Shown here: positions 40,049 to 43,351 of the stretch, piece after piece
Position numbering within the stretch: position 1 is the first letter of the stretch
How the letters are laid out: every line of letters starts with the position of its first letter
From: Anaeromusa acidaminophila DSM 3853
Lineage (GTDB): Bacteria > Bacillota > Negativicutes > Anaeromusales > Anaeromusaceae
Direction: 5' to 3'
Length of the DNA: 64,000 nt
Assembly (NCBI RefSeq): GCF_000374545.1
Contig: NZ_KB894584.1
Span: forward strand, 62,001-126,000
The notes under the pieces: generated by a model
Seen by the model: only the letters and a program-made list of their open reading frames with translations
Database searches by the model: none
Told to the model about the DNA's origin: nothing
Position numbers and translations under genes: made by a program

Positions 40049-41461
40049 TTAGGAGATAAGGGGAAACTTCAAGATGATCGTCGTACCTTGGGAGGGAACG
40101 CTTGCTACCTGGATAGTGGCGTTGTGCTGGGCGGCGATCCAATGGGCGATAGACAGGCCCAGACCGGTACCGCCGGTGGTTTTGGAACGGGACGAGTCTA
40201 CCCGGTAAAAGCGGTCAAAGATTTTGGCTTGCTCTTTTTTCGGGATACCTATGCCTGTATCAGTGATGGTAATTTCCAAATGGGTATTGATTCTTTGCGA
40301 GGCCAGCGTAATGACACCGCCGTCTGGCGTATATTTGATGCTGTTTTCAATAAAAATGCGCAGCATTTGCTTAATGGCGACAGCATCCGCCAAAATGGAA
40401 GCTTGCTGGTTTTGGCTTAGCAGTACCTGGTGCTGCGGGGCGATCAGCCTGGTTTCTTGGAAAATATCCTCCAGCAGGGGCGGCATGAGAAGTGCATCTT
40501 TAGTCAGCGTTTGTTTGTTCTGGTCGGTGCGTGCCAGGAAAAGAAGTTTTTCGATTAAATTATGCATGTTGGCAGCTTCTGACTTTATCGCTTCAATTCC
40601 TTCGGTTAAGGCGGCGCCATCTTGCTTGCCCCAGCGATCCAGCATGTCGGCATAGCCGCTGATTACGGTAATCGGTGTGCGCAGCTCATGGGAAGCGTCG
40701 GCCACAAAACGTTGTTGTTGTTCAAAACCTGTCTGAATGCGGTTCAACATATGATTGAAAGTCGCCGCCAGCTCATGCAGTTCGTCCTTGCTGTTGCTTA
40801 AAGGGATTCGTTTCCCTAGGTCATGAATCTCAATTTCCTTAGCGGTGGTAATGATGGTTCGCAAGGGCTGCAGCGTTTTGCGGCTGATAAACATGCCGGC
40901 CAGGATGGCGATTAAAAGTCCAAGGGCTGTTGTGAGGAACAAGCCCCTGATTAATGTTTTTAAAAAGTTTTTTTCCGCCGCCATGGTTTTAATGATTTGT
41001 AGATGGTAGGTGTGGCTGCCATAGGATACATGCGCAGTTGTGTAGTAGAAGTACATATCGTTTACGTGCAGGATGCGCAGCGGCGTATTTAGCAGCAAGG
41101 CCGGATTGAGAGGGTCGTGTTCTATCTCCGCTTTCTCCATGACCGATTGATTGCTGGGCATATGAGGAGCGCTGTCGACAAGCAGCTGATTTTGCTCATC
41201 GGAAATTCGCAAAATGATGCCCGGGAGGAGAAGATTCTCTTTGAGCAAGCGCTGGTCGACCGGCTCGCCGGAAGCGATATGACGAGATAGGGTATCTACG
41301 CTTAGATCAATATCTGCGACGGCTTGATCGTAGAGCACGTAATACAAGCCAGCTACGGTCAAGGAACTGGTGAAGAGCAAAATGAGGCTAAGTATGGCCG
41401 TATATAAAAAAGTCAGCTTAATGGAGATGGGAACAGGAACGCCTTTAATCTTTGACCACAT
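40049..41461 (-). CDS. ArlS-like sensor histidine kinase
   Basis: Membrane kinase of 470 aa partnered with the regulator that overlaps it by 17 bases. TM1 ~14-37, extracytoplasmic domain ~38-165, TM2 ~168-190, HAMP ~190-245, HisKA with FVADASHELRTPITVISGYA, HATPase with ENSIKYTPDGG, DTGIGI and KTTGGTGLGLSIA. ATG at 41461 (MWSKIKG) follows GAGGAGTCGGTT; the longer frame to 41551 lies wholly inside the regulator gene. Signal unknown; ArlS relatives respond to envelope and metabolic conditions. Confidence 0.9.
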   Translation of the reverse strand: MWSKIKGVPVPISIKLTFLYTAILSLILLFTSSLTVAGLYYVLYDQAVADIDLSVDTLSRHIASGEPVDQRLLKENLLLPGIILRISDEQNQLLVDSAPHMPSNQSVMEKAEIEHDPLNPALLLNTPLRILHVNDMYFYYTTAHVSYGSHTYHLQIIKTMAAEKNFLKTLIRGLFLTTALGLLIAILAGMFISRKTLQPLRTIITTAKEIEIHDLGKRIPLSNSKDELHELAATFNHMLNRIQTGFEQQQRFVADASHELRTPITVISGYADMLDRWGKQDGAALTEGIEAIKSEAANMHNLIEKLLFLARTDQNKQTLTKDALLMPPLLEDIFQETRLIAPQHQVLLSQNQQASILADAVAIKQMLRIFIENSIKYTPDGGVITLASQRINTHLEITITDTGIGIPKKEQAKIFDRFYRVDSSRSKTTGGTGLGLSIAHWIAAQHNATIQVASVPSQGTTIILKFPLIS

Positions 41462-42131
41462 AACCGACTCCTCGCACGGTATGAATGTATTTTTCACCAA
41501 AGCGTTCATCCAGCTTGCTGCGCAAATAACGAATATATACGTCGACGACATTGGTATCGCCTAGATAATCATATCCCCAGACCTCTTGGAGAATATGTTC
41601 GCGGTCAAGGACGACATGCTTGTTGCGAACTAAATACTCCAAGAGGTCATATTCTTTTTTTGTTAGTTCCACCAATTGACCGTCAACTTGCGCTTCATAA
41701 CGGCTGGGATGCAAAACAAGGTTTTTCAGATGCAAAGTATTTTCCTTGAGGCCGGAGACGTTGCGTTTGCGAAGCGCTGCGCGGATGCGAGCCAAGAGCT
41801 CCCGGATGGCGAAGGGTTTGGTCAGGTAGTCATCGGCGCCGATGTTGAGTCCCTCGACTTTATCGTCGAGCTCACCTTTGGCTGTGACCATGATGATGGG
41901 AACATCCGATACTTCTCGGACGCGCTTGCAAATTTCAATGCCGTCCATCTCGGGCAGCATAACGTCCAATAAAACAAGATTAAAATTTTCCTGCACAATT
42001 CGTTCCAGGGCATGGCGGCCATTGGCCTCAATCTCGGTGGTAAAGCCTTCATGCTCCAGCTCCAGTTGTAAAAAGCGAGCGATTTTCCATTCATCTTCGA
42101 CAATGAGAAGATGGGATGCTTTGCTTGTCAT
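41445..42131 (-). CDS. ArlR-like OmpR-family response regulator
   Basis: Transcription factor of 228 aa: receiver ~7-120 (IVEDEWKIARFLQLELEHEG, phospho-Asp in LLDVMLPEMDG, TKPFAIRELLAR) and winged helix ~130-226 with ELTKKEYDLLEYLVRNKHVV, TNVVDVYIRYLRSKL and TVRGVGYVVKD, closely like ArlR. ATG 42131 follows GGAGGTTACTTGT. Its likely binding sites are the 11-bp direct repeats at 42211-42254 and 43006-43049; the first lies in its own divergent intergenic region, so autoregulation is possible. Confidence 0.93.
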   Translation of the reverse strand: MTSKASHLLIVEDEWKIARFLQLELEHEGFTTEIEANGRHALERIVQENFNLVLLDVMLPEMDGIEICKRVREVSDVPIIMVTAKGELDDKVEGLNIGADDYLTKPFAIRELLARIRAALRKRNVSGLKENTLHLKNLVLHPSRYEAQVDGQLVELTKKEYDLLEYLVRNKHVVLDREHILQEVWGYDYLGDTNVVDVYIRYLRSKLDERFGEKYIHTVRGVGYVVKD

Positions 42132-42210
42132 ACAAGTAACCTCCATCGTTAGCGTAGCTATAAGTATATAAAACCACTTTTTTTCTTGGAGCGAAAGAGG
42201 AGTTTTTCTT

Positions 42211-42265
42211 TTTAATCCAATTCTAATCTTTGTGTAATCTCTGTCTAATCTTTGGCTTTTATGAT
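42211..42265 (+). promoter_or_regulatory. Four 11-bp direct repeats and -10 box before methyltransferase gene
   Basis: Units TTTAATCCAAT, TCTAATCTTTG, TGTAATCTCTG, TCTAATCTTTG run without gaps from 42211 to 42254. Five bases later comes TATGAT (42260-42265); no normal -35 is seen. The layout is typical of an OmpR/PhoP-class activator binding over the -35 region. Confidence 0.8.
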
Positions 42266-42310
42266 GGTACTAGAGAGGACGCGACAGGCGCAATGAAAGA
42301 GAGGCTGAAG

Positions 42311-42868
42311 ATGAGTTTGCTTGCAGAACGGGCGGAGTTTATGCTTCGCTTTCTAGAAGAGCCTGCTAAAATCGGCAGCATTACTCCTAGTTCCATGTTT
42401 CTAGCGCGCAAGATGTTGGGGGAGTTACCCTGGCCGGAGCTGGATACTATTGTTGAATTGGGAGCGGGTACAGGAGTATTTACAGGGTACATTTCTCAAA
42501 ATAAACAAAAGAGTGCGAAGACGCTCGTTGTAGAGCAGGACCGAAGTATGCGGGAAACCTTGCGTGAAAGGTATCCGGAATTTTTTTACGGAACTAGAGC
42601 GGAAGAATTGCCTGCGTTGCTACGATACTTTAATTTGCCGCAAGCGGATTGCGTTATTTCGGGGCTGCCTTTTGCGACCTTTTCCAAAGAGGAAAGAAAT
42701 CAAGTCTTGTTAGCAGTCAGTCAATCGTTAAAGACAAACGGAGTATTTGTGGCGTTTCAGTATTCTCTACAAATGCGAAGCTTAGTTAAAAAGTATTTTC
42801 GGGAAGTGCGTATTCGCTTTGCGCCGCTTAATTTTCCGCCGGCCTTTATCTATTACTGCAAAAAATAG
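42311..42868 (+). CDS. SAM-dependent methyltransferase, phospholipid N-methyltransferase-like
   Basis: Class I methyltransferase of 185 aa. SAM motif I is IVELGAGTGVFTGYI near residue 42, and VISGLPFATFSKEERNQVL near 115 corresponds to motif IV of the KsgA/PmtA branch. The N-terminal FMLRFLEEPAKIGSITPSS is typical of proteins annotated as phospholipid N-methyltransferases or rRNA dimethylase-like. ATG 42311 follows AGAGAGGCTGAAG; ATG 42293 lacks a site. The promoter carries the four-unit response regulator repeat, so envelope-stress control of lipid modification is a reasonable inference. Confidence 0.82.
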   Translation: MSLLAERAEFMLRFLEEPAKIGSITPSSMFLARKMLGELPWPELDTIVELGAGTGVFTGYISQNKQKSAKTLVVEQDRSMRETLRERYPEFFYGTRAEELPALLRYFNLPQADCVISGLPFATFSKEERNQVLLAVSQSLKTNGVFVAFQYSLQMRSLVKKYFREVRIRFAPLNFPPAFIYYCKK

Positions 42869-42941
42869 GTTTTAGTGCAACGTTTGGTAAAATACTAGCG
42901 GTGCTAATGAAATAGTACTGGCTATTAAAATAGAGCGTAGC

Positions 42942-42977
42942 AAGCACTGTCCGCAAAACTGCGGGCAGTGCTTTTTT
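42942..42977 (+). terminator. terminator after methyltransferase gene
   Basis: AAGCACTG-T-CCGC / GCGGGCAGTGCTT, loop AAAACT, then TTTTT. Confidence 0.88.
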
Positions 42978-43005
42978 ACGCAGATTGAAGTTCTTTTATG
43001 GTCTT

Positions 43006-43060
43006 TTTAATCTGATTTTAATCTCCTTCTTAGACTTGTCTAATCTTGCCTCTATATACT
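43006..43060 (+). promoter_or_regulatory. Four 11-bp direct repeats and -10 box before small secreted protein gene
   Basis: Units TTTAATCTGAT, TTTAATCTCCT, TCTTAGACTTG (degenerate), TCTAATCTTGC cover 43006-43049; TATACT at 43055-43060 starts after five bases, the same spacing as at 42255-42259. Confidence 0.8.
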
Positions 43061-43109: not shown

Positions 43110-43319
43110 ATGAAAAAGAAATGGCGCGCCTGTGTTTTTTCGGTAATGGCGTTGGGCGGAGTGATTATCGCAGGGCCGGTTTTGGCAGCTCCCCAGGAAG
43201 AAGCTCAGCCAATAATTATCCAAAAAGAAGATCCGGAGCAAGCCGGCAACACTCGTGAAAAAACAAGGGTGTCGGAGCAAGTTGCTTTGGTTAAAGAAGT
43301 AAACAACGTACAGAAATAG
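43110..43319 (+). CDS. Small secreted protein under the TAATC-repeat promoter
   Basis: Pre-protein of 69 aa with a clear signal peptide (MKKKWRACVFSVMALGGVII then AGPVLAA, cleavage likely after LAA) and a mature part of about 42 polar residues, PQEEAQPIIIQKEDPEQAGN onward, with no recognised domain. AAGAAGGTAATTGT precedes ATG 43110. A terminator follows closely, so the gene is monocistronic. Regulation by the neighbouring ArlRS-like system is inferred from the promoter repeats. Function unknown. Confidence 0.75.
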   Translation: MKKKWRACVFSVMALGGVIIAGPVLAAPQEEAQPIIIQKEDPEQAGNTREKTRVSEQVALVKEVNNVQK

Positions 43320-43323
43320 CAAG

Positions 43324-43351
43324 AGAAGCCCCTTTGCTCAGGGGCTTTTCT
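43324..43351 (+). terminator. terminator after small secreted protein gene
   Basis: GAAGCCCC-TTTGCTCA-GGGGCTTTTC. Confidence 0.85.

Follow-up and report, generated by a model that had tools for sequence, protein, structure and literature searches.

Four-unit phased direct repeats as predicted operators of a neighbouring OmpR-family regulator in Anaeromusa acidaminophila

Results

Organisation of the locus

The window analysed here is a 64,000-nucleotide stretch of contig NZ_KB894584.1 (positions 62,001 to 126,000) of Anaeromusa acidaminophila DSM 3853. On its reverse strand it encodes an OmpR/PhoB-family response regulator, the proposed activator (41445–42131; Response_reg and Trans_reg_C domains), together with a membrane histidine kinase whose gene overlaps that of the regulator (40049–41461; HAMP, HisKA and HATPase_c domains). 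The forward strand carries a SAM methyltransferase gene (42311–42868, alternative start at 42293; Pfam Methyltransf_25/11) and a gene for a secreted protein of 69 residues resembling the N-terminus of PepSY proteins (43110–43319), and a terminator-like stem-loop (43322–43351, forward strand) ends the transcript of the latter.

Each of the two forward-strand genes is preceded by an array of 11-bp direct repeats on the same strand, evident both in the sequence and in profile searches. Array 1 (42211–42254) consists of four units, TNTAATCT, with TAATC starting at 42213, 42224, 42235 and 42246, and array 2 (43006–43049) has TAATC at 43008, 43019 and 43041 and a degenerate third unit (TTAGA, 43030). 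Direct reading confirmed the phased 11-base units, one of them degenerate in array 2, that an earlier note on this DNA had reported, and the observation is real. The gap between the last unit and the −10 box was likewise five bases in both promoters, as had been claimed, with TATGAT (42260–42265, forward strand) behind array 1 and TATACT (43055–43060, forward strand) behind array 2; in each case the last TAATC begins 14 nt before the −10 does. The further claim that a normal −35 is missing stands for array 1, where a scan found no good −35, but needs qualifying for array 2, in which the degenerate unit supplies a weak −35-like element (TAGACT, 18-bp spacer, 9/12 matches overall). These facts about the arrays are firm.

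The regulator and its recognition helix

Matches to PF00072 (102.8 bits) and PF00486 (98.9 bits) place the regulator in its family, and its start at 42131, which has a good ribosome site, does lie 80 bases from array 1, as previously stated. The description 'ArlR-like' is sound as a pointer to the OmpR/PhoB family and fails as a specific label, no curated equivalog cut-off having been reached: the best of all NCBIfam models, WalR/YycF, gave 235.3 bits (cut-off 340), PhoB 201.2 bits (cut-off 296.2) and PmrA 165.9 bits (cut-off 330), and the QseB model scored far below its cut-off. The receiver and DNA-binding domains match solved ArlR structures, but regX3, prrA and others match better.

The recognition helix of this regulator, NVVDVYIRYLRSK, hardly varies among array-adjacent regulators, including those of phylum members at 52–58% overall identity; the eight further OmpR-family regulators compared in this genome lack it. 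The neighbouring regulator, already singled out in the earlier note, is the best candidate, being the sole carrier among these nine of the helix found beside arrays elsewhere. The helix type is common in the protein family, so that specificity is not proven by the helix alone.

Rarity of the arrays and spacing to the −10 box

The exact pattern TAATC-N6-TAATC has four matches in the window, every one within arrays 1 and 2, and ten in the 3.48-Mb genome. The remaining six are isolated pairs, most of them within coding regions, and none belongs to an array followed by a −10. The window has two sets of four phased units that match at 17 or more of 20 positions; 60 first-order Markov windows, each 64 kb long, have none. 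A profile built from 11 arrays (R1) found array 1 at E=2.6e-14 and array 2 at E=1.3e-12 in the window's genome, where the next match had an E-value of 0.18. As a guard against circularity, a leave-genus-out profile was made from arrays outside the window's genus only. Used as a position weight matrix it gave 58.7 bits for array 1 and 33.8 bits for array 2, compared with −10.6 for the next separate place in the window and a maximum of −4.9 bits in ten Markov windows; as a calibrated model (R2) it gave E=9.0e-12 and E=6.3e-5 for the two arrays on the window's genome, the next match being at 0.54. With R1 and R2 alike, no site in the whole genome other than arrays 1 and 2 reaches significance; the genome-wide counts come from pattern and profile searches. 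Chance AT-richness as a source of the arrays was ruled out by the shuffles and the leave-genus-out profile.

Spacing was assessed on arrays of related genomes picked by their repeats alone, with the −10 ignored; this yielded 53 non-redundant hits, four of which, in a shifted register, were set aside. A −10-like hexamer lies at exactly +14 in 46 of the other 49, against about 4% at background offsets. In hexamer notation the site reads TNTAAT-N5-TNTAAT-N10-TATNAT, its half-site TNTAAT(C/G) being present in four copies. The arrays thus show the sequence features of a class II direct-repeat operator of the CiaR/PhoB type, namely head-to-tail half-sites, 11-bp steps, a fixed distance to the −10 and a −35 that is absent or weak. 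Five in-phase units rather than four were seen at two loci (L090:3720-3792 and L094:5881-5953).

Conservation and co-occurrence with the regulator

The proposal would have been undermined, according to the earlier note, by arrays that are not conserved upstream of orthologues; on examination they are kept in congeners and in other families. Two congeners also have array 1 ahead of the methyltransferase gene, and a weaker version of it occupies this place in one genome from a different family. Aligned with its counterpart in genome G003, where the methyltransferase is 72% identical, array 1 keeps 20/20 core bases while the spacers differ at 7/18 positions. G002 retains array 2 ahead of the 69-residue gene, with two changes that affect the degenerate unit and the spacer following it. 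Behind the second array of G003 come, in this order, a DUF5666-like gene, a PAP2-like gene, presumably encoding a PAP2-type phosphatase, and the 69-residue gene (L125:3379-4757). In the window array 2 directly precedes the 69-residue gene; judging by the order in G003, the two middle genes seem to have been lost in the window's lineage. The congener G001 has neither the regulator (at ortholog level) nor the methyltransferase, the 69-residue protein or the arrays.

Among 300 genomes of the class, 23 contain strong R1 sites (E<=1e-6). Of these 23, 21 also encode the regulator at E<=1e-85, versus 112/277 of the others, a comparison given with no p-value because related genomes are counted separately. 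Elsewhere in the phylum, R2 detects arrays in 29/398 genomes at E<=1e-4. In many families the array commonly occupies the gap that separates the regulator gene from a gene diverging from it. Four other genera have regulator orthologues whose divergent neighbour comes with the same array at unchanged spacing. Many arrays, array 2 among them, are remote from regulator genes. No close regulator orthologue was found in two array-bearing genomes, G020 and G004. The array of G020 precedes a methyltransferase, and a different regulator in this genome, which adjoins a two-unit site and carries the similar helix NVVNVYIRYLRKK, may substitute for the missing orthologue. In the large family f11, most of the members read encode the regulator at 64–71% identity and carry no four-unit array.

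A related two-component system in G058 and G044 (L107, L128, L195, L196), with a regulator 46% identical and the helix NVVDVYVRYLRNK or NIVDVYVRYLRNK, is accompanied by a variant array of TCTCATC-like units at unchanged spacing to TATAAT. This variant array, which in G044 precedes a PepSY gene, is a possible paralogous operator.

The divergent regulator promoter

On the regulator strand, a conserved block that looks like the promoter of the regulator gene, CTCTTTC...GTGGTTTTATATA (42165–42199, reverse strand), comes after units 2 and 1 of array 1; most regulator loci in other families have it too, and in most families its distance from the units is similar. Several f11 genomes without a four-unit array retain a two-unit site beside the regulator promoter. 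The conserved block and this leftover site together suggest that units 1 and 2 serve autoregulation of the regulator, and array 1 probably serves the divergent promoter of the regulator as well.

The array-less regulator loci read (L131-L145) are mostly from f11, and several of them keep the two-unit site. Other phylum genomes (L168-L186) often show another arrangement, in which the array is followed by a conserved small gene and then by the regulator gene (52–58% identity); the small protein has an N-terminus like MTVNLEQIEMLRERAHVSYGEAKEVLEKFNGDVLEAL, and its first 90 residues have no Pfam match. An array heading such an operon of small gene and regulator in these distant genomes would be direct autoregulation.

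Target genes

The methyltransferase is nearest to the ornithine lipid and phospholipid N-methyltransferases OlsG and PmtA and scores below the cut-offs of both; OlsG was by far its best NCBIfam model at 119.2 bits (cut-off 350), and a search for related loci with the methyltransferase returned a single weak one, in a Lentisphaerae MAG. The 69-residue protein has no Pfam match and shares 46–48% identity with the N-termini of longer PepSY-type proteins in G058 and G044 (L209, L210). It is also present in G002 and G003 and looks like a PepSY protein minus the PepSY domain.

Genes led by arrays elsewhere have mostly envelope functions, as far as their annotation indicates. They encode VTT/DedA proteins, PMT/ArnT-like and GT2 glycosyltransferases, an epimerase and BacA; an outer-membrane efflux protein and an HlyD adaptor with RND genes; and OB-fold (DUF5666-like, BOF), CorC-like, M48 peptidase and PepSY proteins. 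HupE/UreJ, DUF347 and DUF4405 are exceptions to this theme.

Discussion

Proposed mechanism and alternatives

We posit that the arrays are operators of the adjacent regulator (41445–42131) through which a small envelope regulon is controlled by class II activation, a reading that we regard as highly probable. The assignment of the arrays as predicted operators of this regulator is strongly supported by comparison, through conservation, fixed spacing and co-occurrence; we infer activation from the geometry of the sites, and the signal and the envelope role from the neighbouring genes. Phosphorylated dimers of the regulator would line up head to tail along a single face of the helix, filling the four TNTAAT(C/G) half-sites, with the last subunit adjoining RNA polymerase at a promoter equipped with a −10 and lacking a working −35. 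Array 1 would thereby turn on the methyltransferase, with its units 1 and 2, next to the divergent regulator promoter, probably mediating autoregulation, and array 2 would turn on the secreted 69-residue protein. Such a regulon would be small, comprising two promoters here, and would adjust the envelope, probably upon envelope stress.

A regulator other than the neighbouring one might bind the arrays, their proximity being coincidental, as could be argued from G020 and G004, which have arrays with no close orthologue of the neighbouring regulator. We consider this very unlikely, since arrays adjoin orthologues of that regulator in many families, regulator and arrays are jointly missing from G001, and no other regulator compared in the genome has a matching recognition helix. 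That the regulator represses, blocking RNA polymerase at an otherwise constitutive promoter, would agree with an array that covers the −35 region and with the capacity of OmpR-family regulators for repression, MtrA being discussed as an activator or a repressor depending on position (PMC7380067). However, no good −35 is available for blocking, and the fixed +14 spacing is that of a polymerase-contact requirement and matches CiaR activation sites (PMC3091779), which makes repression quite improbable.

It might also be proposed that the arrays act mainly at the regulator's own promoter, with the divergent targets incidental, and several f11 genomes do have a two-unit site like units 1 and 2 in a similar place with no divergent target. 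The position of the target-side −10 in those 46/49 arrays and the distance of array 2 and many others from regulator genes render this highly unlikely. Being AT-rich and helix-phased at 11 bp, the repeats could even be taken for an UP element or curved DNA that involves no specific protein, an idea scarcely credible in view of single bases (TAAT, then C or G) that are kept over great distance while spacers vary, and of the co-occurrence of arrays with the regulator.

If the arrays are indeed operators of the adjacent regulator, a widespread two-component system gains a precise and testable operator and a regulon, and the motif predicts targets in dozens of genomes. The system would also be a clean case for studying the exchange of regulon members, because operator and spacing stay fixed from family to family and the genes they precede do not. 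Should cationic peptides or envelope damage of another kind turn out to be the signal, the system would offer this group a route to the control of envelope modification.

Comparison with known systems

Direct repeats of 11 bp that replace the −35 are familiar from the pho boxes of E. coli PhoB and the PhoP boxes of B. subtilis, and B. subtilis PhoP also uses four units. Their half-sites, CTGTCAT and TTAACA, differ from the TNTAAT(C/G) found here. Staphylococcus ArlR is likewise an OmpR-family regulator with sequence-related domains, and no ArlR model or matching operator was found for comparison, nor an ArlR motif in the papers searched. Within the Bacillota, the OmpR-family regulator RR_1586 of C. 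difficile binds an 11-bp-step direct repeat, DRTTAAGNWWW, present twice (PMC6222199), but differs in its TTAAG core, its two units and its sporulation targets. The sites of C. difficile CmrR, an inverted repeat, and of CBO0786, a repeat at the −10, were considered and found to differ from the arrays.

CiaR operators of Streptococcus have the form NTTAAG-N5-TTTAAG, ten bases from the −10 (PMC3091779). They share with the arrays the head-to-tail hexamers, the 11-bp steps, the ten bases to the −10 (here TCTAAT-N10-TATGAT) and, on the reading proposed here, an OmpR-family activator, and differ in having two units as opposed to four, the half-site TTTAAG instead of TNTAAT(C/G), and the recognition helix VVEVYVSKVRKKL in place of VVDVYIRYLRSKL. 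The four copies of TNTAAT(C/G) and the helix VVDVYIRYLRSKL do not fit CiaR.

PmrA and QseB recognise the half-site YTTAAK in direct repeat (PMC10927774), and VC1638-39 of V. cholerae controls a BOF protein (PMC5636140). Envelope modification, predicted for the present system, links PmrA/QseB and ygiW (visP)-qseBC to it, as do secreted OB-fold (BOF) targets like those of G032 and G062; two half-sites and another phylum separate them from it. No description of the four-unit motif or its regulon was found in the open-licence papers searched, whether on the motif itself, on Negativicutes or Veillonella regulators, on four-repeat OmpR sites or on DUF4342 with two-component systems; the mechanism is known in kind from CiaR, PhoB and PmrA, and the motif and regulon appear to be undescribed. 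We see an even chance that the arrays mark one undescribed two-component regulon that is conserved widely in the phylum. Its rigid operator of four units would serve the regulator promoter on one side and an interchangeable envelope gene on the other, be it for a glycosyltransferase, BacA, DedA, an OB-fold protein or a lipid methyltransferase, and in outer-membrane-bearing members the system would be a counterpart of PmrAB or QseBC.
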